64,000 bases of DNA from the IMG/VR virus record IMGVR_UViG_3300009415_000002, positions 1 through 64,000 of that record, one strand, 5' to 3'. The stretch is from a virus. The position numbers were made by a program, and so were the translations under genes. Every line of letters starts with the position of its first letter. The stretch's first letter is position 1. Shown here in pieces: positions 25,756 to 58,207 of the stretch. Under the pieces are notes generated by a model. The model was given only the letters and a program-made list of their open reading frames with translations, was not told the DNA's origin and ran no database searches.

Positions 25756-25776
25756 ATGACTACAAATATAAGATAA
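25756..25776 (+). CDS. six-residue leader peptide
   Basis: ATG ACT ACA AAT ATA AGA TAA (MTTNIR) ends in TAATG shared with the start of the next gene, so ribosomes ending here could restart there. It lies only 8 bases after the -10 box, so the transcript would start almost at its ATG. Too short to be sure. Confidence 0.3.
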   Translation: MTTNIR

Positions 25777-26645
25777 TGCCGAAAAAGCAAATAAGCAAAG
25801 AAAAACAAGACGAGATTGTAAAACTATATAAAGAAGGTTTAGGTAAAAAGAAAATAGCGTCAATATTAAAGACTTCTACAAGAACAATAACGTTAGTATT
25901 ACAAGAACAAAAAATAGAGACACATAAAAGTGGAGACAATGGAAAAGGGGGCAGACCTTATACAGGAGGAAGAAAACCAAGACATTGGTTATATCAAACT
26001 TGGAGCGGGATAAAACAAAGGTGTTATAACATTAACAATAATTCTTATAATAATTACGGAGCAAAAGGAATAGGTATATATAGTGAATGGAAAAATGATT
26101 TTAATAAATTCAAAAAATACGTAGAAAAAAATTTAGGTGAAAAAGATGCAAATTTATCTTTAGATAGAATAAATCCAAAAGGAGATTATGAACCTGGTAA
26201 TATTAGATGGGCGAACAAAATAACACAAGCATATAATAAAACTAATTGTTTTAATAGAAATTTAGAAACTGTAGATACTTCTTTAATAATAAAAAATTAC
26301 AATTTAGATATTAAATACTATTCCGTAAAAGAATTACAAATTAATAAAGAAATAGAAGACTTAGAAAATACAGGAGTATATATAATAAAATGTGAATCAA
26401 ATAATAATTATTATATAGGTAGTACATCTCGTAGTTTTAGAGAAAGATGGAAAGAGATAAGAAAACAATGTAAAAATAACAAAAATAAAATTTCTAAATA
26501 CCTAAGAAAATTTTGGCAAGAATGTGACGGAGAAACTAACTTCAAGTTTGGTATTTTAGAAATTACAGACAATATAAAAGAACGAGAGCAATACTGGATA
26601 TCTAAATTAGAGCCTAGTTTAAATATTGTAAAAATAGTGTATTAA
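25776..26645 (+). CDS. fused HTH / HNH-like / GIY-YIG homing endonuclease
   Basis: 289 residues. An N-terminal helix-turn-helix (KKKIASILKTSTRTITLVL), a middle segment of the local HNH-like family (IKQRCYN, YNNYGAKGIGIY, LSLDRINPKGDYEPGNIRWA), and a C-terminal GIY-YIG nuclease (TGVYIIKCESNNNYYIGSTS, Arg in SFRERW, Glu in ILEITDN and WISKLEPSLN). Unlike the four leftward relatives it lacks the Cys ribbon and has the helix-turn-helix at the front. It sits alone and rightward between leftward blocks, as expected for a selfish insertion. Confidence 0.8.
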   Translation: MPKKQISKEKQDEIVKLYKEGLGKKKIASILKTSTRTITLVLQEQKIETHKSGDNGKGGRPYTGGRKPRHWLYQTWSGIKQRCYNINNNSYNNYGAKGIGIYSEWKNDFNKFKKYVEKNLGEKDANLSLDRINPKGDYEPGNIRWANKITQAYNKTNCFNRNLETVDTSLIIKNYNLDIKYYSVKELQINKEIEDLENTGVYIIKCESNNNYYIGSTSRSFRERWKEIRKQCKNNKNKISKYLRKFWQECDGETNFKFGILEITDNIKEREQYWISKLEPSLNIVKIVY

Positions 26646-26710: not shown

Positions 26711-26974
26711 TTAGAACAAATCGCCTAGTAATAAAATCCAGGGTTCCCATAAATCTTTATTACCTAACAAAATCCCGTAAGTAATTATTTGAGAGTTATA
26801 AAGATACATAGAAGGATAACCTAACCATAGTACTAATTTCATTGGAGGTTTAAATCTAACTATTTGTATTAATAACAACATGTGGCCAGGTATTAAAATA
26901 TAGTCTACACATTTGCAATATAACCATAATGCAAAAAAGATAGGAAAAGTAACTATTGAGAGCAATGTATTCAT
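26711..26974 (-). CDS. small membrane protein coupled to pyrG
   Basis: 87 residues with an N-terminal membrane segment (LLSIVTFPIFFALWLYC), a second (YILIPGHMLLLIQIV) and further hydrophobic stretches. Its ATG overlaps the TGA of the CTP synthase gene (ATGA), so both are made together. No family recognised; it may tie nucleotide supply to the membrane or be unrelated. Confidence 0.6.
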   Translation of the reverse strand: MNTLLSIVTFPIFFALWLYCKCVDYILIPGHMLLLIQIVRFKPPMKLVLWLGYPSMYLYNSQIITYGILLGNKDLWEPWILLLGDLF

Positions 26975-28760: not shown

Positions 28761-29819
28761 ATGAAAGGTACTGAAACAGTATTAATAGCAAGCTTGATAA
28801 TATCAATTTATTTGTATACAAATAAAGTTAGTAAAACTATAAACTTGCCAAATAATATAATAACTCTTCAAGAGAGTACAAAGATAATAGAGTCAAGAGG
28901 AGAAGATATTGTAGTAGTATTTACTAGTGGGCCTAAATTTAACAGTTCAAATCAGTTTGCTAGATTTATAGACGAGACTTTATTTGGTAAATTAAATACA
29001 GAGTTAGGCAAAAGAGATATAACTTTTGTGGTGTTAAATACTACATGTTTAGCTAGAACAGAAGTTAGATGTACTGCTAAGTTTACTGATATAGCTTTAT
29101 CTATAGCAAAGTTAAAACCTATCGCTGTAGTATACGCTGGTATAGATTCAGGTATCGCTGCTAATTCTTTTGAATCTATAATAAAATCTGAGTCCATACC
29201 TATATATATCATAGGTACTAGAGTAGCTATAGCTAATAATGTATATATAGGTCCTGATAATGTCAAGTTAGGTAAAAGTGCTTATGAAGGGTTAAAGAAG
29301 TATATAGAACCTAATCAAGAAGCTTTGTATGTAGAGACAGTAAGAATAGTAGCTCCGCATGATAAGTTAGATAATGGATATCCTCGTATAAATAGTGCAA
29401 GGCAATTATTTGAGAAAGCAGGAGTAAAAACTAGAGAAACGTTATTTACTGTATGGAATAATGAACAAACTTATTTACAAGTAAGAGTACAGTTGTTAAG
29501 AGAAGGCCCTGTTGAATACATTATTGTTCCTTCAGGAGAAACAGCAATAGGTGCATCAAAAGCTGTCACAGAATTAGGATATAAAGGTAAGGTAAAAATA
29601 GTGGCTTTAGATTTTACAGAAGAAACTTTAGATCTCTTAAAAAGAAAAGAAATATATGGAATTGTTTCACAAGAGCTAAATAAACAAAGTGTAGCTTTAT
29701 CAGATATTATAACTACAAAAAGAAAGCCTAATACAAAAGAGATACTCTTTGCATCAGACTTAATTACATTAGAAAATGTCTATAAATTTTATGATGATGA
29801 AGGCAACGTTATATATTGA
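28761..29819 (+). CDS. membrane-anchored periplasmic sugar-binding-protein-like protein
   Basis: 352 residues. The N-terminal segment VLIASLIISIYLYTN is a membrane anchor or uncleaved signal; no lipobox Cys. The rest follows the type 1 periplasmic-binding/LacI fold: PIAVVYAGIDSGIAANSF, GKSAYEGLKKYI, YIIVPSGETAIGASKAV, then KVKIVALDFTEETLDLLKRKEIYGIVSQ at the end, as in ribose-binding proteins. AGGTGTAAG precedes the ATG. No ABC transporter gene is nearby. Possible roles are altering host sugar uptake or chemotaxis, or a virion or receptor role; none is proven. Confidence 0.7.
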   Translation: MKGTETVLIASLIISIYLYTNKVSKTINLPNNIITLQESTKIIESRGEDIVVVFTSGPKFNSSNQFARFIDETLFGKLNTELGKRDITFVVLNTTCLARTEVRCTAKFTDIALSIAKLKPIAVVYAGIDSGIAANSFESIIKSESIPIYIIGTRVAIANNVYIGPDNVKLGKSAYEGLKKYIEPNQEALYVETVRIVAPHDKLDNGYPRINSARQLFEKAGVKTRETLFTVWNNEQTYLQVRVQLLREGPVEYIIVPSGETAIGASKAVTELGYKGKVKIVALDFTEETLDLLKRKEIYGIVSQELNKQSVALSDIITTKRKPNTKEILFASDLITLENVYKFYDDEGNVIY

Positions 29820-35127: not shown

Positions 35128-35413
35128 TATTTCAAAATACATGCTCGTATATAACATAACAGCATTGCCTGCTATTCTATATGCTTCAATGACACCCGCT
35201 GACGAACCTTTAACATTTGATTCAGATAAATTAGAAATACCACCAGATCTAAATGGTATTCCTATAGAGTTAAGAATTAGTATATATAATCCAGAAGGTA
35301 AGTTAATAGAGTTAGCAAGTAATATGTTACCAGCCAACTCTGTAGTAATTGCTCAAACTGCACAACTCACTGGACTAAAGTTAGTAAAGAAGTTAATTGA
35401 CAACTTAAGCTAA
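35120..35413 (+). CDS. hypothetical protein
   Basis: 97 residues (MNNISKYMLVYNITALP). It has ELRISIYNPEGKLIELAS and a C-terminal helix. Last gene of the rightward chain; its end overlaps the end of the giant leftward gene by 9 bases, so transcription converges here. Unknown function. Confidence 0.6.
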   Translation: MNNISKYMLVYNITALPAILYASMTPADEPLTFDSDKLEIPPDLNGIPIELRISIYNPEGKLIELASNMLPANSVVIAQTAQLTGLKLVKKLIDNLS

Positions 35414-38400
35414 CACATCAGTATAAATTGTCCCATCCATACTGGGTTCTACGTCTTGAGCTTCTTGTAAGTCAGCTAGATGAGCAAAGTTATCTGGATT
35501 GTAAGTAGAATCAGTCATAACCCAGTAATCACTTATTTCACTATTAGTACCGTCAGTCTCAGCAGCAATCTCTTCATAAGCTGCTTGTTGATTTCTTTGA
35601 CGAGATATTCTCTCTGCTACACTAGCACTTAAGTTAGCTACAGGAGCAAAAGAGTCTAGTATATTCTTAACTCCTCCGTTTTGCATTCTAGCTGCCGTTT
35701 TCATAAACACTCCACTAATTAAAGTAGAACTAACAGCAGATATAATAGAGGCCCCTATATTACCAGCAAGCTGTTTACCTGCAGCGTATTTCTCCATGCC
35801 CATAGCACTTAAAGATGGATGAGCTTTCATACCCAAAACATTTCTTTCTATTTTCTGATTAATCCAAGGAGTAGCTACAGCATTAAAACTAGTAGATACT
35901 ACTTCTTGAACAGCCATCTCCGCCACAGCCATGCCTATATTATCATCACCATGCCTAGCTAAAGCATTTTTAAATTTGAATACTCCTGTTAGAGCTTTAG
36001 CACCTGATACTTTTCTCTTATAAGCATTGGGATTAGGATCATCAATTGAACCTGCTCTAGCGTATTGAAAAGCTGTTACAGTAGCTCCACCTAAAGCTTG
36101 AAGCTGGTTATCATCAACATTACCTTCTGATATCATTCCACCAACACCAGTTAAAAGAATAGGAACTAAAACATCTAGTCCAGTAGAAACCTTGTTTTTA
36201 GACATAGCTCTAAGACCTGCATCTCCTACTTTATTTAGTACAGATCCTTTCTTAGTAACATCACTCATGTCCATATACATCTCTCTTGCCATCTTTTGTT
36301 GTCTGATGACCTGTTGATTTCTACGAGCAGCCTGATACTGAATATTGTCCTTAACCATCTTTTTACCTTCCATAGTGATTTGTTCATCACCAGGTAAAAA
36401 GTCTCTAAGAATTTTATCTACTTCCTCATCGTTATTAAATGCATACTCATATAAAGCTTCTCTACCCATCATCTCAGCACTAGCAGCTTGTTGACCAGTA
36501 AGACTTCGTTCATTCATTTCTACAAAAGCATCTAATATATCATTCTCTACTCTTATTAATTTACCACTACCTTTGTACTCACTAGAATCCTTAACTACTG
36601 TAAGAGACTCATCAGCTTCTTGATAAACAAATCTTTCATCAGCCTCGTCTATCATACGAGCATTAAACCCTTTCCAATCTTTAGTCTCATCAGAAGTAGC
36701 CCTACTCCATAGTTGACCTTTATCTTCTGTACCAACTAAGTTTTTATAAACTACTTTTTTAAGAATATAGTCTTGTTCTACTTTATCAGCAGTAGTAAAA
36801 TCTTTACCGTCTACGCTAAGAACTTCTTTATTAGCATTAACAAGCTCACTAAGAACACCTCTGTACATTGCACTAAAGATTCCCATACCTTGTGCACCTA
36901 ACTTCTGCTGAGAAGCAAGTTGAGCCATTGTAGTCATTAACTCAGAACCAGCCATGTCTCTAATATTATGAGACCCTTCTTCTCCTGGCATATTACCAGT
37001 CTCTTGTGCATTAGCTACATTCTTCCTCATAAGTTCAGTAAGAGTAAAGTTTTCCATTCTTTCTCCATCTTTACCAAACAAAGGATCAATTTGTTGTCTT
37101 GTAGTTTCGTATACAGAATCAAACTGTAGTAAGTAGGTTTCAACACTTACTCCTTGCTTTCTTGCAACGTCAGTCAATTCTTTTTGATACTCAGAAGTTA
37201 ATACTCCTTTGTCATCATAAGCACTATCTAAATCTAGCTTCAAATGCTGAGCTAAGGCTGATTTCTGATCTAAGTGAATATCAAATTTATCCCCTTCTAT
37301 ATTAAGATTAGACAAGTATTTTTTATTTAAATACTCTAACATCTCATGATCTTCAGACATAGGTTGCCCATTCTCAAATCTGTTAACTAAAGCAACTTTA
37401 GAAACTTTGTGAATCTGTTTGTTCTGACTAGCAAGTTTTAGTTTTTGAGAAGCAGCAAAACTAGTCATAATTTCAGAACTTTGTTTATTAGAGTTATCCA
37501 TATGATATGAAGTAACCATTGAAGCTACGTTTCTAGCAGTTTGATATCTAGCCACTGCCATTAGAGAATGACTATCAGCCGATATATCATCACGACTACC
37601 AATAGATTTATAGTTAGGATCTCTAGCAGCTAACTTAGCATTAATCTGTCTAAACTCATAACTATTACCAACCTCTTTTCCTCCCAGGAATCTAGATTCA
37701 TAATCCATTAAGTTCATGCCTTTGTTAGTAGATTGATTAATTAAATAATCCATATCCATAAGAGACTTAAGACCAGGTCCTGGACCTAGTTGAGAAGCCA
37801 TACCATCAATAACGCTATCTCTTTGACGTTTAAGATCTTCATACTCAGCTCTATCTTTTTTACTTAAGTCAGCTATATCCCCAGATTCAAAAGCAGCAAT
37901 CTGAGAAGACTTCTCGTTATATACTTTTGAGTTTTCCTGTAGAGAGCTCATCATATCTCCATCAGTTTTTAATTTGATGCTATCTCTTAATAACTGGTGG
38001 ATATTCTTCATAAAGCTTTGGGTACCTTCAGCATTACTAACAGCTTGTCTAGTGGTTTCTTGATATTGATTAAACTGTTCAGCATATATTTCTTTTGCTG
38101 CTTGAGCTTGAGTCACACCAGTTTTATTAGCATAATCTACAACTTCATTTCTACGATCTTCAGATAATCTACTTATATCAAAAGAATCTTCATCTTGGAA
38201 ATAATGTTTTCTTACTGCTTGATGTAGTTCACTATCAGTGTCCATCATTGCTCTACCACTACTAATAGTAGGAGCATCTTGAAATGTACTACCAATAATA
38301 GTGTTATAAGTTTTACCTAGGATTTCCCCACCAGCTTTACCCAACGTTTTAAGTACAATATCAAACACTGGCTCAGTCATATCCATACCCACGGCTTGAC

Positions 38401-41400
38401 TAGTAAACTTAGATAAAGTATCAGCTTCTTGAGTTTTATTAAATATTTCTCCACCAATCCATTGACCTAAGAAAGCTCTTTGACCTGCTTTACGTTTCTC
38501 ATCATCAGAAGCAACATTCTTAAGCATGTCTACATATCTAAGCATGTTATCTTGATCGTTAGCAAAGTTAGATAGTGTTCCAGCGTAAGCTTTAAGAGTA
38601 ACAGAGTCTTCTCCTTCTGCTTGTAATGCTCTTAGAAAATCTACTTGGCCCTGTTTTTCAGATCCACTAGATACTTCTGCCTCTAATATTTCTAATCTCT
38701 TAGATATTTGCTCTCTAACTAAAGCAACATTAGGTTGGGCAGTCTCTCCTTTAGCAGTATTAGTATTAGGATCTAACTTAAGTTTGTGTAAGAACTCTAT
38801 TCCTTCAGCAGGATCAGTGCCTTGGTATCCTAGTAAGGCATCCATAGCAGTATTTACAGCCATCATTTTTCCTGCTTGACCGTATAAGCCTTCTATAATA
38901 TCAGTACCTTGGCCCATTAGAGCATTAAGTTCATCAGCACCCATAGTACGACCACCAAAGCCAGTTATAGCTTTATCTTGATCATCAAATCTTTCTTCAC
39001 CAGTAATAGCATCTCTTAACTGTTCTCCTTGTTCAACAAAGAATCTTTCATCCATTCCAAGATAACCAGCAACTTGCTTACGCATTCTTTCTGTCAAAAG
39101 TCTACTACCAGCTGCAGACTGTTCTTGTAGTTTTTGTTGAGCATATTTAAACTTAGCTTCTGCTTGCACTTTCTTTCTTCTAGACTTAGCATACTCTTGT
39201 TGAAGAGTCTTACCTTCGTCTTCATTAGAAGCCCCCTCTGCAATTTGTTTACTATATGAATTAGATAAAGCGGTTTGTTTATCAACTTCTAATCTAGCTT
39301 CACTCATATACTTTTGGTAATCAGATGCTCGATTCATAACAGTGGTATAAGGGTCACCATCCCAGTCACCACCACCAAAGGTAACAATACCTAGAGAAGC
39401 CATCCAAGACCCTGTTTGACCTCTAGAAATATCGCTAGTCATCTTTGTAGTTTCTATACCTGTTTGACCTACTTGTATCTCACCAGAAAGTTGAGCCACC
39501 CTATTTAAAGCGTGAACTCCTTCCATCAATCTATAAGTATGTAAACGAGGATCTGTACCACCTGGAGTAGGAGAACGAAATACCTCTGCAAGCTCTAAAT
39601 TACTTCTATCTAAATCTTCCATCTCCATACGAACATAACTAAAGAGATCTTCGTAATCTCCTATATTCATATGCTTTTCATTAAGATCCAATTTAAGACT
39701 TTCTAGCCTTTGAATAATAGTTTTAGTTCTTGTTTCATATTCACTATGAGCTGCTGTAATACGAGACTCTTGCTCTGAATCTGTTTTGACTTGAGTAGTG
39801 CCATCTTTGTTCTTGAGTTTAGATTGAGACTCTCTAGTCATAGAGAACTTTTTCATATCCTCCATTCTATTCTTATACATTTGAATAGTTTCGTTAATTT
39901 GCTTTTCCGCAAACTTCTTCTGGACTGCATCTCGACTACCTGAAGAACCAGACTTATTAAATGCTTCCCCTATTTCTTTAATAGCATTAACAACACTCTT
40001 TGTAGGATCTTCATAATCTGAAGTACCAGCAGCTTTAGTCTTACCTGTAAATAATGTATGTTCAGCTAACTGAGTACTTGTTTTACCAAGACCTTCAAAG
40101 ATAGTTCCATCATTCATTATCATTCCTACTTCCTTAAAGCGAGCAACTTTTCTATTAAGATATCCTACTTGCTCACTACTTAAATGTTGTCTAGCAGGAT
40201 TAATACTAGATAGCTCAATACGAGCCAACATAGCATCGTAGTTCATTACAGTAGCATGATATATAAATGCATTAGCAGGATCTAATCTGTTCTTTATACC
40301 TTCTTTATCAAAGTAGTTTATTCTCTCTGCTGCTTCGTTTCTAAGTTTTAGTATAGAGCTTTTTAAAGTATCATAACCTTTACGTCTATCATCTTGAGAC
40401 AGTCCTTTAGCACTTTCATAAGCAACTACTCTCTCAGTAATATTAAGAGATTGTCTCTTTATCTGTTTAAACTCATCTCTATGTGCAGCATCAATACCTT
40501 CTCTAAGAGCAGAAGCTTGTCTTCTGTAGAACTGACGAATCTTTCTAACATCGGTTAAATCATCATCTCTAATAACTTCACCATTTAAAAACTCTGTTTT
40601 ATCTCTAGTGCGACGATTATCATATACAGTTTGAGCCATTTGAGAACCATCTACTTCCATAGCTACTTCTCTAGTGACTACTTTATATGTATCAGAATAC
40701 TCAGTAGCTTCAGATATTGTATTAGTTTTTATTACAGTTCTATTAATTTCTCTTTCTCGACCTACAGTAGCTATATAAGCCTTAGTAGTATCTTCAACAA
40801 TATCATCTGTGATAATACTTTTTATCTTAGCTGTCTCACCTGGTTTTCTAGTAGCCTTAGTAGTATCATCTTCTTCATAAAAGAATTCTCTTCTAGTTTG
40901 TTCTTCCTGATATTCAAAGACATCAAAAGCCTCAACTCTGTAATTAAGCTTATGTATTTGTGCCTCTACTTCTCTTATAGTAGAAGTTCTTTCACCATCA
41001 TGTACAACACTCTGTACTCTACGAGTTTTACCTTTAACCTTATTAAGAAGTTGAGACTCTTGATCTTCTGTTATAGCTCCCCTTTCTACAAGAGCACTTA
41101 AAGTTAGATTAGATTTAACATCATTTCTAGCCCAAAAATCAGGAGTATTCTTAGAGATATCTAGTTCTGCATCAGCATACTGTCTTAGTTCTGCAGAACT
41201 ATCTACTAAGTATTTCTGCATATTTCTAATGTCTTCTTTATTAGCTGCCATCTCAGGTAAACTAACAAGACTTTCTAATTGATCATAAGCTCTTTGTAAA
41301 GTTGTAACTGTAGTAAATACATTATCACGTTGTACATCTTTACTCATACCAGAAGCACCCGCTACGTAACCTAACTTTCTTAAGTCATGTAACTGATAAA

Positions 41401-44400
41401 TAGTATCTTTAACTTCTTTAAGATGCTTACTATTACTATTAGTTTCTACTGCTTTACTTAAAGATGAGAAGCTATTGTATAAACCTGAACCCATTTCTAT
41501 ATAGACTCTTTCAACAGCACTGCCGGCATACTTGCGACTGCTTCTCATTGACCTCATATTCTGAGTTGTTTCTTTTAGAAGTGCAGTACGCTCTTCATAA
41601 ACTTCTAATCCTAACTCCTGTTGTTTTGATACAGCCATAGCAGCAGAACCAAATGGCATTAAGTTGCTACCAATACCTGTACTTGTAAAACCTTGATATT
41701 TAACTTTACCAGCGTTGGCCTCTTGCATACGAGCACCAGCTACTGCTTTCTCAATTTCTACTTCCATAGTAGCTGCTGCCTCCATTACAGATTGTAAAGC
41801 TTTAGTCTCATCTGTAGTAAGAACAATACTTATACCTGTTTGAGCTCCTGCTCTTACTTTTTCAAAGGCTACGTTAGCTATATTACCTGGAGTAAAGATT
41901 GCAGTTAAAGCTTTATAGTTTTGTACTACGGGATCTACAAAGTCAGCATGCTGTGCACCTAAGTTTCTCATTATCTGAGCACTAGGAATAATAGTAGACA
42001 TGCCTTTAGATTTATCTATATGTGCAACTACCTGACCATACTGTTGATCAAAAGAAATACCAGGTAATGTAATATACATACTTTCATTACTCATATTAGC
42101 TAAGTATTCTTTTGTATTAGTTTTACCTATTACTTTACTAGCATTTTGTTGATGAGAATCATTCATAGCCATAAGTCCTCTTTCAACATCATCTAGTTGT
42201 TGCATAGCAAACTCACGACCACCTTTTTCAATGATTCTTTGTACATGTCTTTCTCTATCAGTAGAAGTTAAGTACCCATACTTAGCCTTTACAAAGTTTT
42301 CAACCTTAGTACGACCATCATCTGTAATAGAGTTAGCTTTCCACTCATAAGCACCCTCAGTTATATCTTTGTTAATATTTGTGTACATATCAACAAAATC
42401 CTGGGTATAAACCCCTGTTGTTCCACCTTGGTAAAAACCTAAGAACTTTCTCTTCTCAAAAGAACTAAATAAGTAATTAGATTCTGCTTCTACTAAGTTG
42501 CGGGCTTTTCTTGAACCAAATTGATTAGCGTTTTGAGTTCCATACATAGTTAAACCAGACTTCATATTAGAAGTCATAGCAGCTAAGCTAGCAACAGTAT
42601 GTTTAATCTTACCTAACTGACCTGTCTCTTTATATTGTTTAATATCACCTAGATAAGGAGTTATTAAATGCTGCCCTTCATGTCTAGCTACAGATTGAGT
42701 ACCAGTTGGATCCTTACTATAAGAGAATGTAATATCACTAAAGATAGAAACAGCAGTTATCTGAGTAGAGAGACCTTCAATCATCTGCATTAGCATTTCT
42801 CTATTTTCATCATCTATATCAGTAGGAGCTCCTAATACATTTAACATTACAGCTCTGTAATCTGGGTTAGATATGTCTATATCTCCAGGTACTCTCATAC
42901 TAGAACCACTAGCTGATAATTGATGCATAAAGTCAACAGCAGTAGTAATGATAGTCGCCTGTCTATCCATTTGACTATCAAAGTTAATAGATCCATAAGC
43001 TGCTGCATTTTTAGCAGTAGGGTCTACCAAGCTTCTAACTGCATGTAGTAATTCATTAGATTGAGAACCATCACCTGCTAATACATTAGACAGCATAGTA
43101 CTAGTAATACCTCTAAGACCACCTACTGATATATCAGAGAATGCTGACTTAGAAGTTAAGCTTTCAAATAACAAATCAGAACTAATTTCAGATCTTGATC
43201 TACCGTACTTATCTTTAGCCATTGCTTTGTCAATACTACCATCCATACCTATTTGTACAGCAAGAGCAGCAGTAAGCTTTTGATAATGTTTTCCATACTC
43301 ACCTTTAGCCAAGCCTTCTATTAAAGCTTGTTGTAATTTACGGGCTTCTGCAGGTTCAGAGTTATAACCAGATATATCTTTTCCTTTTTTTCTATCTTCA
43401 AAATAACCTTTCATATTCAAAGCTTCACCAGAAGCACTTGTAGTTATAAAACTACCTCCGAACTGAATAAGTAAAGCTCCTGCTACCTTTTTAGCTGCAG
43501 CAATATCCGCTTCACCTTTAGCTCCAAATAACTCATCTAACATAAAGTGAGATTTAGTTCCATCTTCACCAGTTCTTAGTGAGCGCATTATAGTAGCACC
43601 GTGACTCCAGAAGAAAGACTTGAAGTTATTAGAGTTATATAGTCCATGTACTGTAGATGATAAAGGAGTATAACCATAAGTACCGTCTTGGAGTTTAGTA
43701 TAATCACTAGCCTCGTTTACAGTAGCTCCTAGTACACCGTCTTTTCTCATATCTAAGTAAGCTTTTAAAGAACCACCAACTTCATTAGCATACATTTGCT
43801 GCTCTAAGTGCTGGAAAGTATTCATTTCTACTTCTCGTCTTTCACCATCTATGTGAGTCATAAATTTATTACGACCTGCAAAGTTAGCTACACCTTTAAT
43901 TAATGCACCACTATCTGTACCTTCAACTCTTCGACCACTTCCTGGCATAACAGAACGTAATCTGTGGAACATTCCTACATATTCGTTGTTATCAAAATTA
44001 CCACCTCTATGATAAGCATCCATTAAGTAGTCAATACTTTGTTCTCCACTACGTCTGTAAGTAGCCATTTCTGAAGTACCGAGAGTAGGAGAACCAACTG
44101 GACTAAATGAGGTATTGTCAACAACATTTTTTATAGTAGACATATTACCTTTATGGTCAGCAACACCTACTATCTTCCAGTCTCCATCAATCTTTCTCTT
44201 TAGAACAGTAGAATTAGTATTAGGATCTTGAACAATTATGTCTCCTCTCTTTTGGAGAACCTCATAACCACCTTCACCAATCATTGAGCCTTTTATACTC
44301 TGTTGTTGAGTTTCTATATAACCTTCTCTCATTCCTCTTGCCAAGACTCCTTCACCAGGTTCTAACTGCCCAGGTCTTTCTAACACTAAGTCAGGGTCAT

Positions 44401-47400
44401 CTATATGCCATTCATTAGCAAGACGTCTATTGTAAGCACCTTTACTTGTGTATACAGAGCCGTATAAAGGGTTAGCAAGGAAAGTATCAGTATACGTACC
44501 TCCAAGCTGTATAAGAGCCATAGAGTAGCGCATATGATCACTACCAGCTAACATCTTACCTAAGTTTAGATCTAAACTAGCTTTAAGAACTTCTACTCTT
44601 AACAATTCCTCCTTCATTTCATCAGTAACAGAGTCACCAACAGTATCTTCTATATCTTTTCTAGTACGCATTAAGAAATTCATCTGTTGTTGATTCATAA
44701 CAGATTTAGTATTACCAGAGAACACAGCTCCTAAAGAAGAATGTGAATCAGCAAAAGCGTTTCTAGAGACAGTACCTATATTAGTAACTTGTCTAGCTAA
44801 TCTTATAACTTCTATATGATCATCACCTAATATTTTTCTTTTAGCCTCAAGCTCTTTCATAAGAGCTTCTCCACGAGCTTGAAGACCCATTTTTCCATCA
44901 CTACCTTTAAGTAGCTTTTCTCTATTTCTCTTAAGGTAATTATCAGTTAGCTGAGACATACTGTCACCAGTAGAATACTCACCATCTAAACTTCTTTCTG
45001 ATACAGCTTGTGCAGCTACCCCAAATTGATAAAGAGGTCTAGCACCTAAAGCATTTTTTATACGCTGAGGCAACTGTGATACTTTCTTAGCGTCTCCAGT
45101 GTAAAACTGTAAAGCAGTATCTTGACCTTGGAATGTATTTTTTAATCCCTCTCTATAATGTTGAATTGCAATTTCAGCAGCATCTTTGTTAGTGATATTA
45201 CCTTGGGAATCTCTTCTAAAGAACATTTCCATTTGCTCGTCCTTAAGAAGCATTTGGCCTTCAGCATCTCTTGCAAACTCCCCATTACCATCTTGAGAGA
45301 AATAAGCATTGGCATGTACCATATTACCTATACCAACAGAAGACAGTACACGAAGATTATCTGCTGTACCCATTTGTCTAGCTTCTTGAGCAAAGAATAC
45401 AGAGTCTAATGCATCATCATACTTATTCATAGAAGTAGACTTACTAGCGATACTTCTATATAAGACTGCATTAATATCTGTAGTAGGTCTATAAGCTAAA
45501 GGAGTAATACGAGCAAACATTCCTACATTCTTTATAGAACTAATAACTTGCCCATTTTCATCTCGTGGTTGTTCTCCAAATAAATACTGAACACTATCTT
45601 TATCATTTCTATTACCAGCAAACCCCATCATTACTGTACGGTAGACAGCCTGTTGTCCACCATAAGTTCTTCCCTCTCTACCCTGTAAGAAAGAATCAAA
45701 TAGACTAGCTTGAAACTGTTTAAACCTATTAACTTCTAATGCTTCTCCAGCATTTCCTCTGACGCTATTCATCATGTCTGAAGCTAAAGAAGGAGATAGT
45801 AAAGCTAAGGTTTCTAAATGCTTAGCAACAGAACCATCCATGATTCTTTGTCTTTCTTCATAATCTCCACTAGCAGCCACTCTTCTTAAAGCACCTACTA
45901 AACCTTCCTGACCTTCTTGACTACCAGAGGCAGCTAGACCAAAGAATGCTTTATGTAATCCTAAAGTAGTATCTATCTCTGAACTACCCAGTTTCTTCTG
46001 ACCAAATAGAGACACACTAATATCACCTATTAACTTTTCTGTCTCTAAGTTAAAGGCTTCTTTACCATCTTCTGTTCTACTTACACTGATATTAGATATG
46101 AAGTTTTGCATAGAGCTTACTTTAGCACCAGTTTCAGTGTTCATAGTATCACCATAACCAGTAAGCATCTTGGACATATAACTAGTAGCTATATTTCTTC
46201 TATCTGTTTGACTAGTAATTGATGCGTACTTAGCTTGTTGAGATTCTACTCCAAAACGACTATCTGCTTCACCTAATATAGTTGCAAATAGTTGAGGAAC
46301 TATATCTAGAGCACTCATGTAAGCACTTTGTCCAGACTGAAGATCTACTCTTCCATCTTCCAACCCTGACTTAAAATCATCATCATAATTATTTCTACCT
46401 AGAACACTAATAGCACTTCCACTATTATTAGCAAATATACCATTACCTACTATTTGACTTTTATCTACAAAGTAAACAAATGCACCTGCATCACCATCAT
46501 CAGTACGAGCGTTAAATAGGTTACTACCTCTATTAGGTCCATTAAGTACAGACAACTCAAATTGTAGTTTAGGTAATCTTGAAGTAGATGCTAAATATCC
46601 TTTTGCTCCTAATGCCTGAGTTAGATCTAAACTTACATTAATAGAAGTAAGACCACTACCACTTGTGTCGCCGTATCTATCAACAATCTTAAAGGCCGAT
46701 TCAGACACACCTAAAGTCTTGCGCATTTGCTCTAGTCTATTTTTAAGAATAACTAGTCCACCTGTATTAATATTACGCTGCCATAGAGGTTCAGTTCTAA
46801 TAGCATTGTAGTTAGGATTAGTAATCTCGTTATTACCTAGTTGATTCCAAGTAGTGCTTAAATGCTGCATTGCTAGATTTAATTCATACCTTTCCTCTTC
46901 TTGGTCTAAACTAAAATCATTATTAAGAGGAGTAAACTCTGGATCGTTATCCATATAATAAGCATCATATCTTTGAGCCACTCTAGCTTGATGAGCTGAT
47001 GCTCTACTTAGACTAGTAGATACATTTCTGTCTCCAAGCATCAATCCTATTTCAGTATTAGTTCTATCACCATCTCCAGGAATATACATAGGCGTACCCT
47101 GTTTTGATGTACCACCTTCTATACCCATAGAATATTGACCCATGTTAGAAGACCCCATGTAGTAAGATACTAATTTAGGATCTACGCCCTTATTGTTATA
47201 TTCCATTAATCCAAAGCTCTTAACGTGCTGTCTAGGAGCTTTAGCCATAGTAATATTATCTGAAGCCATACCAATAATTTGCTTCAAATCAGACTCACTA
47301 AATCCAGCTTCTTTTGTGAAACCTTGTACTCTAAGTAAAGTCATCATCTTACCCATTTGAGTAGAGTAAGAACTATCACTTGTAGAAGTAGACGGGTTAA

Positions 47401-49531
47401 ACAAAGAGTACCCAGCCATTAGACCTAGATTTCTACCATACTTATTATAGTTAGATTTAAGTCTTTCACTCCCACTCTTTTCTATCTTTTGAACAAGAGG
47501 ATTAATAATTTGTTCTCTATAGTTTTTAGCATCAACAGTAACAGATGCTTTTCCGGTTATTAATAAGTCAAATAATTTATCTTGAGCTTGATAATATCTT
47601 TGAGTTTGGAAGTTTTCTTTTCCGTAAGCACTAGAAACTTCTTTACCCATTTCTCCAGCTAAAGCAATGTTTTTAGAAGTATCACCTAACTGAAGCATAA
47701 AAGCCTGATCAAGCACCATAAACATATGAGTACTTGTACCAGTGGTAGTTTCTTTTGCGTACCCACCTCTAGTATTACCACCAACTACATCAAATCTTTT
47801 CTCATGAGCATAGTTCAGAGTGTTCTTTAAGTGCTGCCAAATATCTCCAGCGAATCCTACCTGCATACCTCTAGATTGAGAAAGAATAGGAGTAGCGGTA
47901 CTACCTCCTTTTCTACCTACATCATTTCGGCTATAAGTTAATTCCTCGTTAGAGATACTTTCTATTTGTCTATATAGTAAAGACTGAGTTACATCTCCAG
48001 TTTTAAGAGCTACATCTCTTTGTTCAGTCCAAGTATCTCCTCTACCTTGTCTAGTATTAAGACGAGCAGCATTTAAACTTCTATCATCTTTATATTTATT
48101 AACAACAAACCGCATAGTTTCAAAGTTGCTACCAGCTTGGTTAACACTATTACCTACAGGTCCTGTTAAGTTTTGAGTACCTATCCCTGCTACATTATCT
48201 GTTAAGTAAAGTTTGGGGTGGAACTTCTTATCTCTAAACTGTATATTTAATTTAAAGTAATCCTTAATATCAACTCCAGTAATACCCATTTGTTGTAAAG
48301 TACCTTGAAGTTGTTCTTGTATAGCCTGTAGCTTTAAAGCTTCAATTAAGTTAGGACCTAGTATATTGTAATTAGTTGAACCTACACCGTACCTTCCTTC
48401 TTCAGTGGAAGTACCATCTAAGTCTCTTTGACGAGGATAAGCTAAAACAAAATCTACTTCAAATGCTTTGTTATTACCTGATGCTACGTTTTCTAATACT
48501 CTACGTTGAATTTTATCTATTAAAGCAGCACTGATAGCCTCGTTCTGAAACTGGAAGGATTGTATACTAATTTTATTTTCTGCTGTATTCACTAAATCCA
48601 CAAAATTAGCAATACCAGCTTTATCTACATAACCACCTTGAGTAGCTGCACTACTTCTATTACCTAAATTATTATTAATGAGTTCAAGAGCGCTAACTAA
48701 ATCTTTTGGATCAGTTTTTTGTTGAAGAGCACTAGCATGTATATCTGCAGAGTTAGCTAGTCTATTACGTTCACCTACTGTACCATTAACTAAAGTATTT
48801 CTTATAGTTCTACGAGCACTTGATAAACCACTACCTGTCATAGATAATTGATTTATCATTGACTCTCCATGGAATCTTTGAAATTCAACATCTAATCTAT
48901 CTACAATATTTTGACTATCGTATAAAGATCTATTCACATTATCTTTAAGAACTCTAGCTGCAGCAGTAGCAGCCATGTCATCTGGATTAGTGTTAGCCAA
49001 TTGAGTTGATAAAGCAGAAGTACCATCTTCTAAGTTTTCATAGGGTGCAAATACATTATCGTATAATGCTCTTGAACCAAAAAAATCTTCATCATCTCCT
49101 CCACCAAAACCACCTCCACTTAATATTTCACCAGTAAATCTATTAAAGGCATTACTAGTACCAAATCTAAAAGGAGATGAATTTACTTCAGCAAACTTAC
49201 TAGCGTTCATTACAGTTTCATCTGCAATAGTTGCTCCTAGTCTACTATTAAAAGCTCTATTGTGTCTTGCTTGCTGAACTGTACGATTATCACTATCAGA
49301 ATCTATACCTAATTCATTATTCCAATCTCTTTCAAGTTCTCTAACAGAGTTTTCCATTTGAGGAAGGAACTCATCTCTATCAGCAAATGCACGGCCATCT
49401 ATGCCTTCATTTAACACATTAATCATTGTGTGAAATCTGACAGCATTACCTAAAGCAGTACGTTGATACTGATTAGTTCCCAAGGTACTTTTAAGGGAAT
49501 CTATTCTATGTTGTGATCCTTCTCTTGACAT
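35405..49531 (-). CDS. giant virion-type protein with PLD, HExxH and DxDGD motifs
   Basis: 4708 residues, a fifth of the window, unbroken. FHPKLYLTD...GTQN (His438, Lys440, Asp445) is a phospholipase D-type active motif; a second one, 164 residues later (His602), has lost its Lys. HEGQH at 2284-2288 is a zinc-protease motif. GGGDWDGDPY (Asp3389, 3391, 3393) resembles the metal-binding loop of single-chain RNA polymerases. Long coiled stretches fill 2500-4400; two Gly-rich hydrophobic segments lie near 4450-4470 and 4590-4610. The likely role is an internal or tail protein ejected with DNA; a tape measure is possible but would be extremely long. It runs against the flanking structural genes. 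Confidence 0.8.
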   Translation of the reverse strand: MSREGSQHRIDSLKSTLGTNQYQRTALGNAVRFHTMINVLNEGIDGRAFADRDEFLPQMENSVRELERDWNNELGIDSDSDNRTVQQARHNRAFNSRLGATIADETVMNASKFAEVNSSPFRFGTSNAFNRFTGEILSGGGFGGGDDEDFFGSRALYDNVFAPYENLEDGTSALSTQLANTNPDDMAATAAARVLKDNVNRSLYDSQNIVDRLDVEFQRFHGESMINQLSMTGSGLSSARRTIRNTLVNGTVGERNRLANSADIHASALQQKTDPKDLVSALELINNNLGNRSSAATQGGYVDKAGIANFVDLVNTAENKISIQSFQFQNEAISAALIDKIQRRVLENVASGNNKAFEVDFVLAYPRQRDLDGTSTEEGRYGVGSTNYNILGPNLIEALKLQAIQEQLQGTLQQMGITGVDIKDYFKLNIQFRDKKFHPKLYLTDNVAGIGTQNLTGPVGNSVNQAGSNFETMRFVVNKYKDDRSLNAARLNTRQGRGDTWTEQRDVALKTGDVTQSLLYRQIESISNEELTYSRNDVGRKGGSTATPILSQSRGMQVGFAGDIWQHLKNTLNYAHEKRFDVVGGNTRGGYAKETTTGTSTHMFMVLDQAFMLQLGDTSKNIALAGEMGKEVSSAYGKENFQTQRYYQAQDKLFDLLITGKASVTVDAKNYREQIINPLVQKIEKSGSERLKSNYNKYGRNLGLMAGYSLFNPSTSTSDSSYSTQMGKMMTLLRVQGFTKEAGFSESDLKQIIGMASDNITMAKAPRQHVKSFGLMEYNNKGVDPKLVSYYMGSSNMGQYSMGIEGGTSKQGTPMYIPGDGDRTNTEIGLMLGDRNVSTSLSRASAHQARVAQRYDAYYMDNDPEFTPLNNDFSLDQEEERYELNLAMQHLSTTWNQLGNNEITNPNYNAIRTEPLWQRNINTGGLVILKNRLEQMRKTLGVSESAFKIVDRYGDTSGSGLTSINVSLDLTQALGAKGYLASTSRLPKLQFELSVLNGPNRGSNLFNARTDDGDAGAFVYFVDKSQIVGNGIFANNSGSAISVLGRNNYDDDFKSGLEDGRVDLQSGQSAYMSALDIVPQLFATILGEADSRFGVESQQAKYASITSQTDRRNIATSYMSKMLTGYGDTMNTETGAKVSSMQNFISNISVSRTEDGKEAFNLETEKLIGDISVSLFGQKKLGSSEIDTTLGLHKAFFGLAASGSQEGQEGLVGALRRVAASGDYEERQRIMDGSVAKHLETLALLSPSLASDMMNSVRGNAGEALEVNRFKQFQASLFDSFLQGREGRTYGGQQAVYRTVMMGFAGNRNDKDSVQYLFGEQPRDENGQVISSIKNVGMFARITPLAYRPTTDINAVLYRSIASKSTSMNKYDDALDSVFFAQEARQMGTADNLRVLSSVGIGNMVHANAYFSQDGNGEFARDAEGQMLLKDEQMEMFFRRDSQGNITNKDAAEIAIQHYREGLKNTFQGQDTALQFYTGDAKKVSQLPQRIKNALGARPLYQFGVAAQAVSERSLDGEYSTGDSMSQLTDNYLKRNREKLLKGSDGKMGLQARGEALMKELEAKRKILGDDHIEVIRLARQVTNIGTVSRNAFADSHSSLGAVFSGNTKSVMNQQQMNFLMRTRKDIEDTVGDSVTDEMKEELLRVEVLKASLDLNLGKMLAGSDHMRYSMALIQLGGTYTDTFLANPLYGSVYTSKGAYNRRLANEWHIDDPDLVLERPGQLEPGEGVLARGMREGYIETQQQSIKGSMIGEGGYEVLQKRGDIIVQDPNTNSTVLKRKIDGDWKIVGVADHKGNMSTIKNVVDNTSFSPVGSPTLGTSEMATYRRSGEQSIDYLMDAYHRGGNFDNNEYVGMFHRLRSVMPGSGRRVEGTDSGALIKGVANFAGRNKFMTHIDGERREVEMNTFQHLEQQMYANEVGGSLKAYLDMRKDGVLGATVNEASDYTKLQDGTYGYTPLSSTVHGLYNSNNFKSFFWSHGATIMRSLRTGEDGTKSHFMLDELFGAKGEADIAAAKKVAGALLIQFGGSFITTSASGEALNMKGYFEDRKKGKDISGYNSEPAEARKLQQALIEGLAKGEYGKHYQKLTAALAVQIGMDGSIDKAMAKDKYGRSRSEISSDLLFESLTSKSAFSDISVGGLRGITSTMLSNVLAGDGSQSNELLHAVRSLVDPTAKNAAAYGSINFDSQMDRQATIITTAVDFMHQLSASGSSMRVPGDIDISNPDYRAVMLNVLGAPTDIDDENREMLMQMIEGLSTQITAVSIFSDITFSYSKDPTGTQSVARHEGQHLITPYLGDIKQYKETGQLGKIKHTVASLAAMTSNMKSGLTMYGTQNANQFGSRKARNLVEAESNYLFSSFEKRKFLGFYQGGTTGVYTQDFVDMYTNINKDITEGAYEWKANSITDDGRTKVENFVKAKYGYLTSTDRERHVQRIIEKGGREFAMQQLDDVERGLMAMNDSHQQNASKVIGKTNTKEYLANMSNESMYITLPGISFDQQYGQVVAHIDKSKGMSTIIPSAQIMRNLGAQHADFVDPVVQNYKALTAIFTPGNIANVAFEKVRAGAQTGISIVLTTDETKALQSVMEAAATMEVEIEKAVAGARMQEANAGKVKYQGFTSTGIGSNLMPFGSAAMAVSKQQELGLEVYEERTALLKETTQNMRSMRSSRKYAGSAVERVYIEMGSGLYNSFSSLSKAVETNSNSKHLKEVKDTIYQLHDLRKLGYVAGASGMSKDVQRDNVFTTVTTLQRAYDQLESLVSLPEMAANKEDIRNMQKYLVDSSAELRQYADAELDISKNTPDFWARNDVKSNLTLSALVERGAITEDQESQLLNKVKGKTRRVQSVVHDGERTSTIREVEAQIHKLNYRVEAFDVFEYQEEQTRREFFYEEDDTTKATRKPGETAKIKSIITDDIVEDTTKAYIATVGREREINRTVIKTNTISEATEYSDTYKVVTREVAMEVDGSQMAQTVYDNRRTRDKTEFLNGEVIRDDDLTDVRKIRQFYRRQASALREGIDAAHRDEFKQIKRQSLNITERVVAYESAKGLSQDDRRKGYDTLKSSILKLRNEAAERINYFDKEGIKNRLDPANAFIYHATVMNYDAMLARIELSSINPARQHLSSEQVGYLNRKVARFKEVGMIMNDGTIFEGLGKTSTQLAEHTLFTGKTKAAGTSDYEDPTKSVVNAIKEIGEAFNKSGSSGSRDAVQKKFAEKQINETIQMYKNRMEDMKKFSMTRESQSKLKNKDGTTQVKTDSEQESRITAAHSEYETRTKTIIQRLESLKLDLNEKHMNIGDYEDLFSYVRMEMEDLDRSNLELAEVFRSPTPGGTDPRLHTYRLMEGVHALNRVAQLSGEIQVGQTGIETTKMTSDISRGQTGSWMASLGIVTFGGGDWDGDPYTTVMNRASDYQKYMSEARLEVDKQTALSNSYSKQIAEGASNEDEGKTLQQEYAKSRRKKVQAEAKFKYAQQKLQEQSAAGSRLLTERMRKQVAGYLGMDERFFVEQGEQLRDAITGEERFDDQDKAITGFGGRTMGADELNALMGQGTDIIEGLYGQAGKMMAVNTAMDALLGYQGTDPAEGIEFLHKLKLDPNTNTAKGETAQPNVALVREQISKRLEILEAEVSSGSEKQGQVDFLRALQAEGEDSVTLKAYAGTLSNFANDQDNMLRYVDMLKNVASDDEKRKAGQRAFLGQWIGGEIFNKTQEADTLSKFTSQAVGMDMTEPVFDIVLKTLGKAGGEILGKTYNTIIGSTFQDAPTISSGRAMMDTDSELHQAVRKHYFQDEDSFDISRLSEDRRNEVVDYANKTGVTQAQAAKEIYAEQFNQYQETTRQAVSNAEGTQSFMKNIHQLLRDSIKLKTDGDMMSSLQENSKVYNEKSSQIAAFESGDIADLSKKDRAEYEDLKRQRDSVIDGMASQLGPGPGLKSLMDMDYLINQSTNKGMNLMDYESRFLGGKEVGNSYEFRQINAKLAARDPNYKSIGSRDDISADSHSLMAVARYQTARNVASMVTSYHMDNSNKQSSEIMTSFAASQKLKLASQNKQIHKVSKVALVNRFENGQPMSEDHEMLEYLNKKYLSNLNIEGDKFDIHLDQKSALAQHLKLDLDSAYDDKGVLTSEYQKELTDVARKQGVSVETYLLQFDSVYETTRQQIDPLFGKDGERMENFTLTELMRKNVANAQETGNMPGEEGSHNIRDMAGSELMTTMAQLASQQKLGAQGMGIFSAMYRGVLSELVNANKEVLSVDGKDFTTADKVEQDYILKKVVYKNLVGTEDKGQLWSRATSDETKDWKGFNARMIDEADERFVYQEADESLTVVKDSSEYKGSGKLIRVENDILDAFVEMNERSLTGQQAASAEMMGREALYEYAFNNDEEVDKILRDFLPGDEQITMEGKKMVKDNIQYQAARRNQQVIRQQKMAREMYMDMSDVTKKGSVLNKVGDAGLRAMSKNKVSTGLDVLVPILLTGVGGMISEGNVDDNQLQALGGATVTAFQYARAGSIDDPNPNAYKRKVSGAKALTGVFKFKNALARHGDDNIGMAVAEMAVQEVVSTSFNAVATPWINQKIERNVLGMKAHPSLSAMGMEKYAAGKQLAGNIGASIISAVSSTLISGVFMKTAARMQNGGVKNILDSFAPVANLSASVAERISRQRNQQAAYEEIAAETDGTNSEISDYWVMTDSTYNPDNFAHLADLQEAQDVEPSMDGTIYTDVLA

Positions 49532-50472: not shown

Positions 50473-52062
50473 ATGACTGATACAAACTTTCTTGATGAAG
50501 GTAAGACTTCAGTAAAGACAAACCCTAAAGAAAAACTAAAGTTAGAAGATAAGCCTCTGTCTGCGTCAGCAATAAGACAGAGGCCTGCTAACTATGGGCA
50601 AACAGGTTTAGCTACATCTTATATAAGTACAGGTGATAACTTTACACCTATACGAAAGCCTCATCATTATCAATTGGCTGCATGGGATAACGCAAGATTA
50701 AAAGAACCTATTATTAATAATGGATTAGAAAAGCTAGTACTTTATATATGTAGTAAAGTAGGAGAATATCATCATCCTAATTCTATGATAGAAGACTTTG
50801 TTAATGCCAATATAAAAGGCAAAGTTAAGAAGTGGATACAAGAAATTGCTACTACTGCTTACTGGTCAGGTTTTGGGGTATCAGAAGTTCTTTGGGAAAA
50901 GAAGATGGGCCCTGATAAGATTAGACAAGTTTGGATTGATGATGTAGTTAACTACCATCCAACACAAATCCAATTTAGATTAAATGATTATAGTAGGCTT
51001 ACTCATGGAGAAAAGACTAGCTATGGTCAGTTGTACAGTGGTATTTGGGTTCCTGCTCCTAATGCTATTAAAACAAAACGTAAAAAGTTAAGCAGGAGCT
51101 ACACTGGTGGAATGGTTAGACTAGAAAAGTCTAAAGTTTTTCATGTTGCTTTTGGTGGAAGTTCTAATAATCCTTGGGGTATTTCAAAACTACACCCTGT
51201 ATTAGACTATCACTTATTCAAAGAAGCTTTCCGTGACATGATGGCAGTTGCACTAGATAGATACGGCACACCTCTTTTATACGCTATTGTTCCTCCTCAA
51301 ATTACTAATGAAGTAGTAGAGGAGGCCGATGGCACTTCTAGACCAAAACAATATAGAGAATCTGTTACAGAAGCTCTTGAAAATGTCAGAGGCAATCAAG
51401 GTATTGTACTAGAACAATTGAGTAAAGAATATCCAGTAACTATAGGTTCACTAACTACAGGAAACAACTTTGCTGATGCGTTTGCACAAGCTATAGATCT
51501 TTGTGATTCAAACATGATGGTAGGAATGGGAATTCCTAATTTAATCATGCGTGATGAATCAAGTGGACTTGGAAACGGACAGAGTTCTGAAAACCAAGTA
51601 GAAATGTTCAATATGTTAATTGGGCATTATTTTGAGTTAGTAACATCTGCTTTTGTTAATCAGGTTGTACGTCAACTTATAGCTTATAACTTTAATCCTG
51701 ACACGGTTAAAGATATTAGTGATCCAGGTTATATATCTGAGATTCCTTTAAGACCTACAGAGATTGAAACGTTAATGAAGGCCTTTAGTGAATTAACTAC
51801 ACTAGGTTATATGAATCCAGGTAATCAAGAAGATTACAATCATGTACGTACTATGGTTCAATTACCTCAACGTGATGTTGATAAGTTTGCTAAAGATATG
51901 ATCAAAGTACATACTGAACAAACTGACCAAGAAGTAGCTAAAGAAAGTATTACAGTTAAAAGAGAAGACATAGCAGCTAAAGAGCGTATGAATAAACAAA
52001 AGACAAGTGCAGCTAAAGCTACTGCTAAAAGTAGACCAGCACCTACAACTACTAATAAATAA
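50473..52062 (+). CDS. portal protein (Mu gp29/DUF935-like)
   Basis: 529 residues. KKWIQEIATTAYWSGFGVSEVLWE, NPWGISKLHPVLDYHLFKEAFRDM, ALDRYGTPLLYAIVPP and GIPNLIMRDESSGLGNGQSS followed by QVVRQLIAYNF are the hallmarks of the DUF935 portal family. It would form the dodecameric DNA gate of the head. The C-terminal 45 residues are a Lys/Ala-rich tail. The terminase must lie outside the window. Six bases after the frameshift gene. Confidence 0.85.
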   Translation: MTDTNFLDEGKTSVKTNPKEKLKLEDKPLSASAIRQRPANYGQTGLATSYISTGDNFTPIRKPHHYQLAAWDNARLKEPIINNGLEKLVLYICSKVGEYHHPNSMIEDFVNANIKGKVKKWIQEIATTAYWSGFGVSEVLWEKKMGPDKIRQVWIDDVVNYHPTQIQFRLNDYSRLTHGEKTSYGQLYSGIWVPAPNAIKTKRKKLSRSYTGGMVRLEKSKVFHVAFGGSSNNPWGISKLHPVLDYHLFKEAFRDMMAVALDRYGTPLLYAIVPPQITNEVVEEADGTSRPKQYRESVTEALENVRGNQGIVLEQLSKEYPVTIGSLTTGNNFADAFAQAIDLCDSNMMVGMGIPNLIMRDESSGLGNGQSSENQVEMFNMLIGHYFELVTSAFVNQVVRQLIAYNFNPDTVKDISDPGYISEIPLRPTEIETLMKAFSELTTLGYMNPGNQEDYNHVRTMVQLPQRDVDKFAKDMIKVHTEQTDQEVAKESITVKREDIAAKERMNKQKTSAAKATAKSRPAPTTTNK

Positions 52063-56908: not shown

Positions 56909-58207
56909 ATGAACGGAATATCATACCCACCTCTAAATTTTGATGGTAACGTAACTCCTTACGCTATCACTGGCAATACAGAGAATCCAGGTGAGCCTTC
57001 TTTGACCGAACTTGCCAAGTCTTTTCAACCTATTGTAGGTCGTACTCCTCTATCGGAAGTTTTCCCAGATGAAAACATCGGTGAACGACATGTGTACATT
57101 CAACAAGAAATGAGTACTGTTGACACAATCTTTCCTCTAGTTAAGTTTGGTCAGCCAGATGTTATCTTGGGCCATAATTATGGAACCATGAGAGCATTCA
57201 CAGTACAACCTCTATATATTAGACGTTCTTCATTCGTTTCATACGGTGAAATTAACTCTAAGATTAAGCCTGGTTCTACTAATGACAAATGGTCTCCAGA
57301 AGAACAGATTTCCAATGTTATCCAAGGGATGGTGCGTGAGCATAATCTTACTTGGGATGTATGGCGTGCTTCTATGCTATTGGGTGGTATTAATTATACT
57401 GACCCACGTTCTGGTGTAGGTGCTTCTGTTAATGCACAAATTCCTGCTCGTAACTTCTTCCATTATGGAGTAACTGCTGGATACCGTGGTCGTCCTGAAG
57501 CTCAATTATTCAAAACTCTTTCAGACTTCAATGACACCGAGCCTAATAACGCTGGTGTACCTTGGACTCATCCTGATGCTGACATTGTAAACAGTGTTGC
57601 TCGTTTTGTCCGTTGGTTCCGTGAAACTAACAAAGGTATTGTAACTCGTATGTATATGCATCCAGAACTTAAGGAAGTTCTTATGATGTCTAATCAAGTT
57701 CGTCTTGTTACTGGTGGTTTACTAGGTAATCCTGGTAAAACTGAAACAGTTACAGACCCTACTAAAGATATTGTTGGACGTGACCATATGGGTCTAAGCG
57801 GATTCCAATTAGGTTTATCTGCTGACGGTCTTACTTCTATTGCTGGGGTACCTATCTACACTGTAGAGACTACTTATAAAGATCCAGTCGATGGTATTAA
57901 TAAACGTGTATGGCCTAAGAATAAGGTTGTATTTGTTGCTGATCGTACTACTAATGGTGAATCTATCCAAGTTGGTCGTACTCAGTTCTGTGTATCTGAA
58001 GAAAGTGGTGGAGCTCCTGGTCTATGGACTCGCCGTCAGACTGAAACTCAAATCCCTGCTGCTCCTGGTATGCATGTACAAATGGGCAACGCCGGGATGC
58101 CTTACTTAAGATATCCGTACATGGTTGCGCACATGACTGTGTGTGACGTTGAGGATATCAACAACAGACTTGGTGTATTAGGTGACCTACACTTCGGTCA
58201 ATTCTAA
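56909..58207 (+). CDS. major capsid protein
   Basis: 432 residues. The start TELAKSFQPIVGRTPLSEVFPDENIGERHVYIQQ and the segments EHNLTWDVWRASMLLGG and RYPYMVAHMTVCDVEDIN fit a lambda gpE-type capsid protein. It follows the protease/scaffold as usual. An 11-bp hairpin follows the stop. Codons use many T/C-ending forms (CGT, GGT), suggesting high expression. Confidence 0.8.
   Translation: MNGISYPPLNFDGNVTPYAITGNTENPGEPSLTELAKSFQPIVGRTPLSEVFPDENIGERHVYIQQEMSTVDTIFPLVKFGQPDVILGHNYGTMRAFTVQPLYIRRSSFVSYGEINSKIKPGSTNDKWSPEEQISNVIQGMVREHNLTWDVWRASMLLGGINYTDPRSGVGASVNAQIPARNFFHYGVTAGYRGRPEAQLFKTLSDFNDTEPNNAGVPWTHPDADIVNSVARFVRWFRETNKGIVTRMYMHPELKEVLMMSNQVRLVTGGLLGNPGKTETVTDPTKDIVGRDHMGLSGFQLGLSADGLTSIAGVPIYTVETTYKDPVDGINKRVWPKNKVVFVADRTTNGESIQVGRTQFCVSEESGGAPGLWTRRQTETQIPAAPGMHVQMGNAGMPYLRYPYMVAHMTVCDVEDINNRLGVLGDLHFGQF

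Follow-up and report, generated by a model that had tools for sequence, protein, structure and literature searches.

The window analysed here (64,000 nucleotides, positions 1 to 64,000 of the IMG/VR virus record IMGVR_UViG_3300009415_000002, which has 65,435 bases) encodes a giant protein of 4708 residues. Our data suggest that this protein is probably a two-barrel RNA polymerase (RNAP) fused to a phospholipase D (PLD) phosphodiesterase, carried in the virion and injected into the host. Its gene lies next to the portal and head genes:

35405..49531, minus strand: giant open reading frame of 4708 residues with an ATG start and no Cys, orthologue of Ma-LMM01 gp080 (PHROG 31006).
35702..36187, minus strand: C-terminal region with conserved hydrophobic segments at residues 4449-4467 and 4592-4610.
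37967..37996, minus strand: conserved Q-x-x-R-D-x-x-K-x-K, residues 3846-3855.
45038..45085, minus strand: conserved K1483xxQxxQRxKNxxGxR, role unassigned; Q1486, R1490 and N1493 in 22/22, the rest in 20-21/22.
50473..52062, plus strand: portal protein, orthologue of LMM01 gp083, in the divergent head module adjoining the giant gene.
56909..58207, plus strand: major head protein, orthologue of LMM01 gp086 (E 3e-123).

The gene reads from 49531 to 35405 with no internal stop. The original prediction of a single unbroken gene for a 4708-residue protein was therefore right, with exact coordinates; the strand is the minus strand, and the plus-strand reading of the same span is full of stops. A Pfam scan of the whole protein gave no matches. 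PHROG 31006, a profile of 3562 positions, matches it with E=1.7e-36, and tblastn with the giant protein recovered Ma-LMM01 gp080, orthologues of it in Microcystis phages and a partial homologue in the Microcoleus phage My-WqHQDG; a match in a Parabacteroides phage was disregarded (E=6). Further relatives were taken from IMG/VR in four scans, using alignments with the LMM01 and Microcoleus phage proteins. A single-sequence search for related loci gave no matches, and the bacterial genome contigs searched contained no relatives. The distinct complete members of the family range from ~3360 to 5400 residues, and some of the IMG/VR records are fragments. In two relatives the frame is interrupted: a single in-frame TGA (L015:5933-5935) breaks the giant frame of L015 after residue 1471, downstream of the PLD part but ahead of the polymerase motifs, and a frame change splits that of L021 after the PLD domain. 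These interruptions are either assembly errors or true gene splits.

Most of the neighbouring genes are collinear with LMM01 gp081, gp083 (portal), gp084, gp085, gp086 (major head), gp087, gp089 and gp090. The portal and head genes adjoin the giant gene in the window, in LMM01 and in the relatives L008 and L017, and in both of these relatives a portal gene comes after the giant gene. A terminase, sought in the relatives' loci for context, was not found there. Elsewhere, the window carries a CTP synthase gene (26971-28581, minus; CTP_synth_N E 6.4e-115, plus glutamine amidotransferase) beside a Peripla_BP_4 domain gene (28761-29819, plus; E 3e-17), an HNH/homing-type endonuclease gene that is possibly mobile (25776-26645, plus), and genes for tRNA-Glu and tRNA-Pro (6865-7272, minus). 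In LMM01, an annotated array of 42-bp repeats (43271-43551; L230:7272-7552) adjoins gp064, and a tandem repeat search of the window found no counterpart.

The N-terminal part of the protein contains a genuine two-site PLD domain within one chain, as confirmed by HMMs, Foldseek and invariant residues:

47042..48667, minus strand: PLD superfamily domain, residues ~289-830, identified by the PLDc_2 HMM, AlphaFold/Foldseek and invariant residues.
48119..48220, minus strand: PLD half-site 1, H438xK440x4D445...G451TQN454...E471.
47051..47227, minus strand: PLD half-site 2, H769xK771...G793SSN796...E827, with H, K, S, N and E each in 20/21 aligned relatives.
47684..47740, minus strand: residues 598-616, a conserved strand of the PLD fold and not a half-site, according to the family alignment.

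The HxKx4D...GTxN motif that had been predicted at residues 438-454 is present as HPKLYLTD...GTQN and is kept in all relatives, except that its D is sometimes E. Both HxK pairs, both Asn and both downstream Glu are present in 12 aligned relatives, and nearly throughout the wider family. The window protein by itself has no Pfam PLD match; PLDc_2 was found in 11 of 17 family members, with a best E of 1.8e-7. Modelled by AlphaFold, window residues 200-1130 have a mean pLDDT of 67.8, mostly 75-93 across the PLD core. Domain-wise structure prediction thus places the motifs in a PLD fold: the top Foldseek matches of the model belong to the PLD superfamily (best E 1.6e-5, prob 1.00), and the structural matches include Streptomyces PLD, the PLD3/PLD4 exonucleases, F13, phosphatidylserine synthase and Tdp1. 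The model also matches that of an LMM01 'PLD phosphodiesterase domain-containing protein' with E 9.9e-36. The PLD part of gp080 is already flagged by automatic annotation and hence is not new.

The second half-site differs from what the original prediction described. The 'degenerate partner' proposed at residue 602 falls in the conserved strand at 598-616, where the family pattern is M-x-L-[DN]-Q-x-x-L-L and a His is peculiar to the window protein and a few relatives. Half-site 2 is in fact located at 769-827 (HVK...GSSN...TNTE). Its Lys, which had been thought lost, is K771, kept in 20 of the 21 aligned relatives, and since both half-sites are in the same chain, there is no need to postulate the dimer that had been thought necessary. 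The Asp of half-site 2 is not conserved in the family, so the motif does not tell a lipid from a nucleic acid substrate.

The candidate polymerase lies C-terminal to the PLD domain and comprises three conserved regions:

43562..43939, minus strand: candidate barrel B (DPBB-B), R1868...K1879-G-V...L/F-K1971-S; R1868, K1879 and K1971 in 22/22.
39353..39577, minus strand: candidate barrel A (DPBB-A), R3319-S-P...G3324...D3389-W-D-G-D3393 metal motif; DxDGD in 20/20 alignable members.
38282..38350, minus strand: candidate bridge-helix region, G-x-x-G-x-x-x-L-G-K-T-Y-N at 3731-3743; G3734, G3739, Y3742 and N3743 in 21/21.

The metal motif, DWDGD at residues 3389-3393 of the window protein, has the form DxDGD in every one of the 20 alignable relatives, with a chance expectation of 0.12 from composition alone; like the PLD residues, it is invariant among relatives of 20-30% identity. 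In most members, RxP..G lies 58-70 residues ahead of it. The invariant DxDGD, the RxP..G, and the lysines K1879 and K1971 far upstream together correspond to the motif signature by which two-barrel RNAPs of the single-chain kind are known.

We compared these motifs, after the sequences had been seen, with those of three known single-chain enzymes, and the alignments are consistent but weak. The barrel-A profile places DxDGD on the DxDxD of phi14:2 gp66, P23-45 gp96 and YonO; the scores with gp66 and gp96 exceed 15 column-shuffled controls, and the score with YonO does not. In gp66, the single-chain two-barrel virion RNAP of a crAss-like phage, AIGYRIPNQG precedes DFDID by 38-39 residues. The best alignment from an unguided HHalign comparison with a 60-sequence profile of the gp66 family brings both RxP and DxDxD into register, AIGYRIPNQG...DFDID with AIGFRSPPFG...DFDGD of the relative L005, although its score is not significant. 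gp66 differs in having DFDID instead of DFDGD, in its size (2180 residues), in having no PLD half-sites in a motif scan and in its much shorter motif spacing. In P23-45 gp96, the RxP..G (FRNPVMG) is likewise 38-39 residues before DxDxD, compared with 58-70 in the giant-protein family. In YonO, the single-chain two-barrel RNAP of SPbeta, RSP stands 43 residues before DNDGD, without the G. The best alignment of the barrel-B profile is to KGLLVPFDFRKF of YonO at the segment of K1971, with a score of 21.3 against a maximum of 19.1 in 15 shuffles, and this alignment suggests that K1879 and K1971 belong to barrel B. YonO differs from the giant protein in being a non-virion enzyme of 839 residues without a PLD domain. 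The candidate bridge helix resembles AGGKSGVGITANMLV of gp66 and IGEYSNNI of YonO by eye only; the bridge-helix profile gave no alignment with gp66 or YonO where the eye suggests one.

The most serious alternative, though we consider it unlikely, is that the giant protein is an injected protein, of the ejection or internal head kind, with an active PLD and no polymerase. DxDGD and the lysines would then be structural or metal-binding, and the rest of the chain a scaffold. PLD is the sole domain supported by both profile and fold, whereas the polymerase fold was not recovered by AlphaFold, Foldseek or profile searches of the PDB. For the putative polymerase region, an AlphaFold model was made from the relative L005; it has a pLDDT of 53.6 and a pTM of 0.33, and Foldseek returned no RNAP among its matches. 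Because the model is poor, we give this Foldseek result no weight. Searches of the PDB with HMMs of the three motif regions recovered no RNAP, and the matches that they gave were set aside as chance (antibody light chains with D[YF]DGDSY, pentatricopeptide repeats and a resolvase). HHalign of the family against gp66, gp96 and YonO gave no significant score, and the ~1000-1500 residues between the two candidate barrels far exceed the spacing in gp66. Against a protein without a polymerase, DxDGD, RxP..G and the two lysines follow the order of two-barrel RNAPs and are conserved far above their surroundings. In addition, the distant giant relatives L045, L046, L047, L048 and L049 retain DYDGD or DFDGD together with the lysines, and in L046 and L047 DxDGD is kept while the PLD catalytic residues are missing or unaligned. 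Thus, DxDGD is conserved independently of the PLD.

The absence of cysteine is in line with passage through the virion. The giant protein has no Cys in 4708 residues, compared with 1.22% in the other open reading frames of the window (57 expected, P about 8e-26), and the family has a single Cys in 88,263 residues, compared with 0.97% in flanking frames. Among known RNAPs, P23-45 gp96 has 0 Cys in 5002 residues, phi14:2 gp66 has 2 in 2180 and the non-virion YonO has 14 in 839. N4-like virion RNAPs are also Cys-free, which their authors link to injection and to passage via the tail and periplasm (PMC3715699, PMC3915230, PMC2784036). Some nearby structural proteins of the window phage are Cys-free as well, so the lack of Cys points to the virion and not to a polymerase as such; together with the synteny, it suits any injected protein equally. 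The orthologue of LMM01 gp064 (1446 residues, window 13366-17706, minus), unlike the Cys-poor structural proteins, has 16 Cys. The virion RNAPs of N4-type phages (Schitoviridae) further resemble the giant protein in their size of about 3400-3500 residues and in being injected in one polypeptide (PMC3715699, PMC3915230). They differ in their T7-like polymerase fold: of the T7-type motifs (T/DxxGR, A, B, C), five members of the giant family showed only scattered [TD]xxGR and no comparably placed set with motif B.

It is less probable still that the giant protein is the tape measure of the tail and carries a fused RNA polymerase, on the model of the Thermus phage P23-45. It and gp96 of P23-45 are similar in size, in DxDGD and in the hydrophobic segments, and gp96 is a Cys-free tape measure with an RNAP at its N terminus (PMC10770324). 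gp96, giant like the window protein, has a DFDGD that follows FRNPxxG; its RNAP is N-terminal and fused to the tape measure, and a motif scan found no PLD half-sites. In the window protein, by contrast, the RNAP motifs lie in the C-terminal part, and its gene adjoins the portal gene on the strand opposite to the head module. The length of a tape measure corresponds to about 0.15 nm of tail per residue. By this rule of thumb, the 3562 residues of gp080 would specify a tail of ~530 nm, against the 260 nm tail of the Ma-LMM01-type phage MaMV-DH01 (PMC9927357). gp96 is also a precedent for the way in which the motifs were read here: DFDGD was what gave away the polymerase in this giant virion protein, which otherwise had no detectable RNAP similarity, and proof by structure and activity came later (PMC10770324).

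The zinc protease of the original prediction is based on one short motif:

42668..42682, minus strand: HEGQH, residues 2284-2288, with the HExxH form otherwise found only in the closest relative (HEAQH).

HEGQH is present, with a chance expectation for HExxH of 0.06 from composition alone. In the family alignment, HExxH recurs only in the closest relative (L019/L044), and the same column elsewhere reads LEMQH, TEMQH, TEIQH, LEFQH, LEAQH, LEAQY or LQNAD. The equivalent region of L005 was modelled by AlphaFold with low confidence. An effector with both PLD and zinc-metalloprotease activity, directed at membrane or DNA and at protein, is very improbable, even though metallopeptidase domains are common among injected multidomain phage proteins (PMC5512222). 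Most other members have [L/T]ExQH at the aligned site and several have ALQNA, so that the first zinc ligand is absent in most of the family, and no peptidase family gave a match. We treat HEGQH as a lineage-specific variant of what appears to be a conserved non-protease motif. As for the broader idea of a virion effector acting on entry, the PLD fold, the lack of Cys and the portal/head linkage lend it good partial support; the zinc protease is not supported, the argument for a dimer fails, and what would be the principal function was missed.

What is known of transcription in these phages has to be set against the polymerase reading. MaMV-DH01 was stated to lack an RNA polymerase (PMC9927357), and all phases of Ma-LMM01 transcription were attributed to host sigma70, with early promoters that are host sigma70-like (PMC5780444). 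With such promoters a phage polymerase is not required, and this counts against an RNAP in the giant protein. A full-text literature search found no paper assigning a polymerase or PLD function to gp080, and the annotations that we found for it are hypothetical or 'PLD phosphodiesterase domain-containing', none of them polymerase. Between consecutive minus-strand genes at 18506-23317 (minus), the window also holds twelve copies of a hairpin, and a weaker thirteenth at 22605, each followed by the near-invariant tail CCCTTATTTTGTA (0.09 expected by chance). The stem varies, with pairing mostly kept. These hairpins are intrinsic terminators or, alternatively, promoters of the hairpin type used by a phage RNA polymerase. 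As a repeat, they were tested for a role as the cognate promoter, but are absent from LMM01 and the other relatives searched, and we therefore did not count them as evidence.

According to the injected two-barrel polymerase that we favor, the giant protein would be packaged in the particle and enter the cell together with the phage DNA or before it. Its N-terminal PLD (residues about 289-830) would cleave phosphodiesters at entry, in either membrane phospholipid or nucleic acid. The C-terminal hydrophobic segments (4449-4610) may anchor the giant protein in the envelope during DNA transfer. A large C-terminal part of the chain would form the single-chain two-barrel RNA polymerase. Lysines 1879 and 1971, in KG[V/P] and [L/F]K[S/G], would lie in barrel B, and the magnesium site, DxDGD at 3389-3393, in barrel A. 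This core would transcribe the first phage genes without the host polymerase.

The Ma-LMM01 gp080 protein and those of other Fukuivirus-type cyanophages share ~25% identity with the window protein in the PLD region and have the same half-sites. gp080 has DFDGD, and its synteny with gp081-gp090 is common to the window phage; it differs in its length of 3562 residues and in having LEMQH instead of HExxH. We lean, by a modest degree, towards the view that Ma-LMM01-type cyanophages harbor an unrecognised lineage of giant, Cys-free, injected two-barrel RNAPs fused to a two-site PLD, which would prepare the envelope or attack host nucleic acid and start transcription. If gp080 is a virion polymerase, the host-dependent picture of transcription in these phages would be wrong for its earliest stage, which is testable in a cultured phage. 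The giant protein would then represent a further architecture of giant virion RNAP beside those of N4, crAss-like phages and P23-45, and PLD phosphodiesterases would gain a place in phage entry. In addition, a search for proteins that combine Cys absence with DxDGD suggests itself as a simple way to screen for further hidden polymerases of virions.
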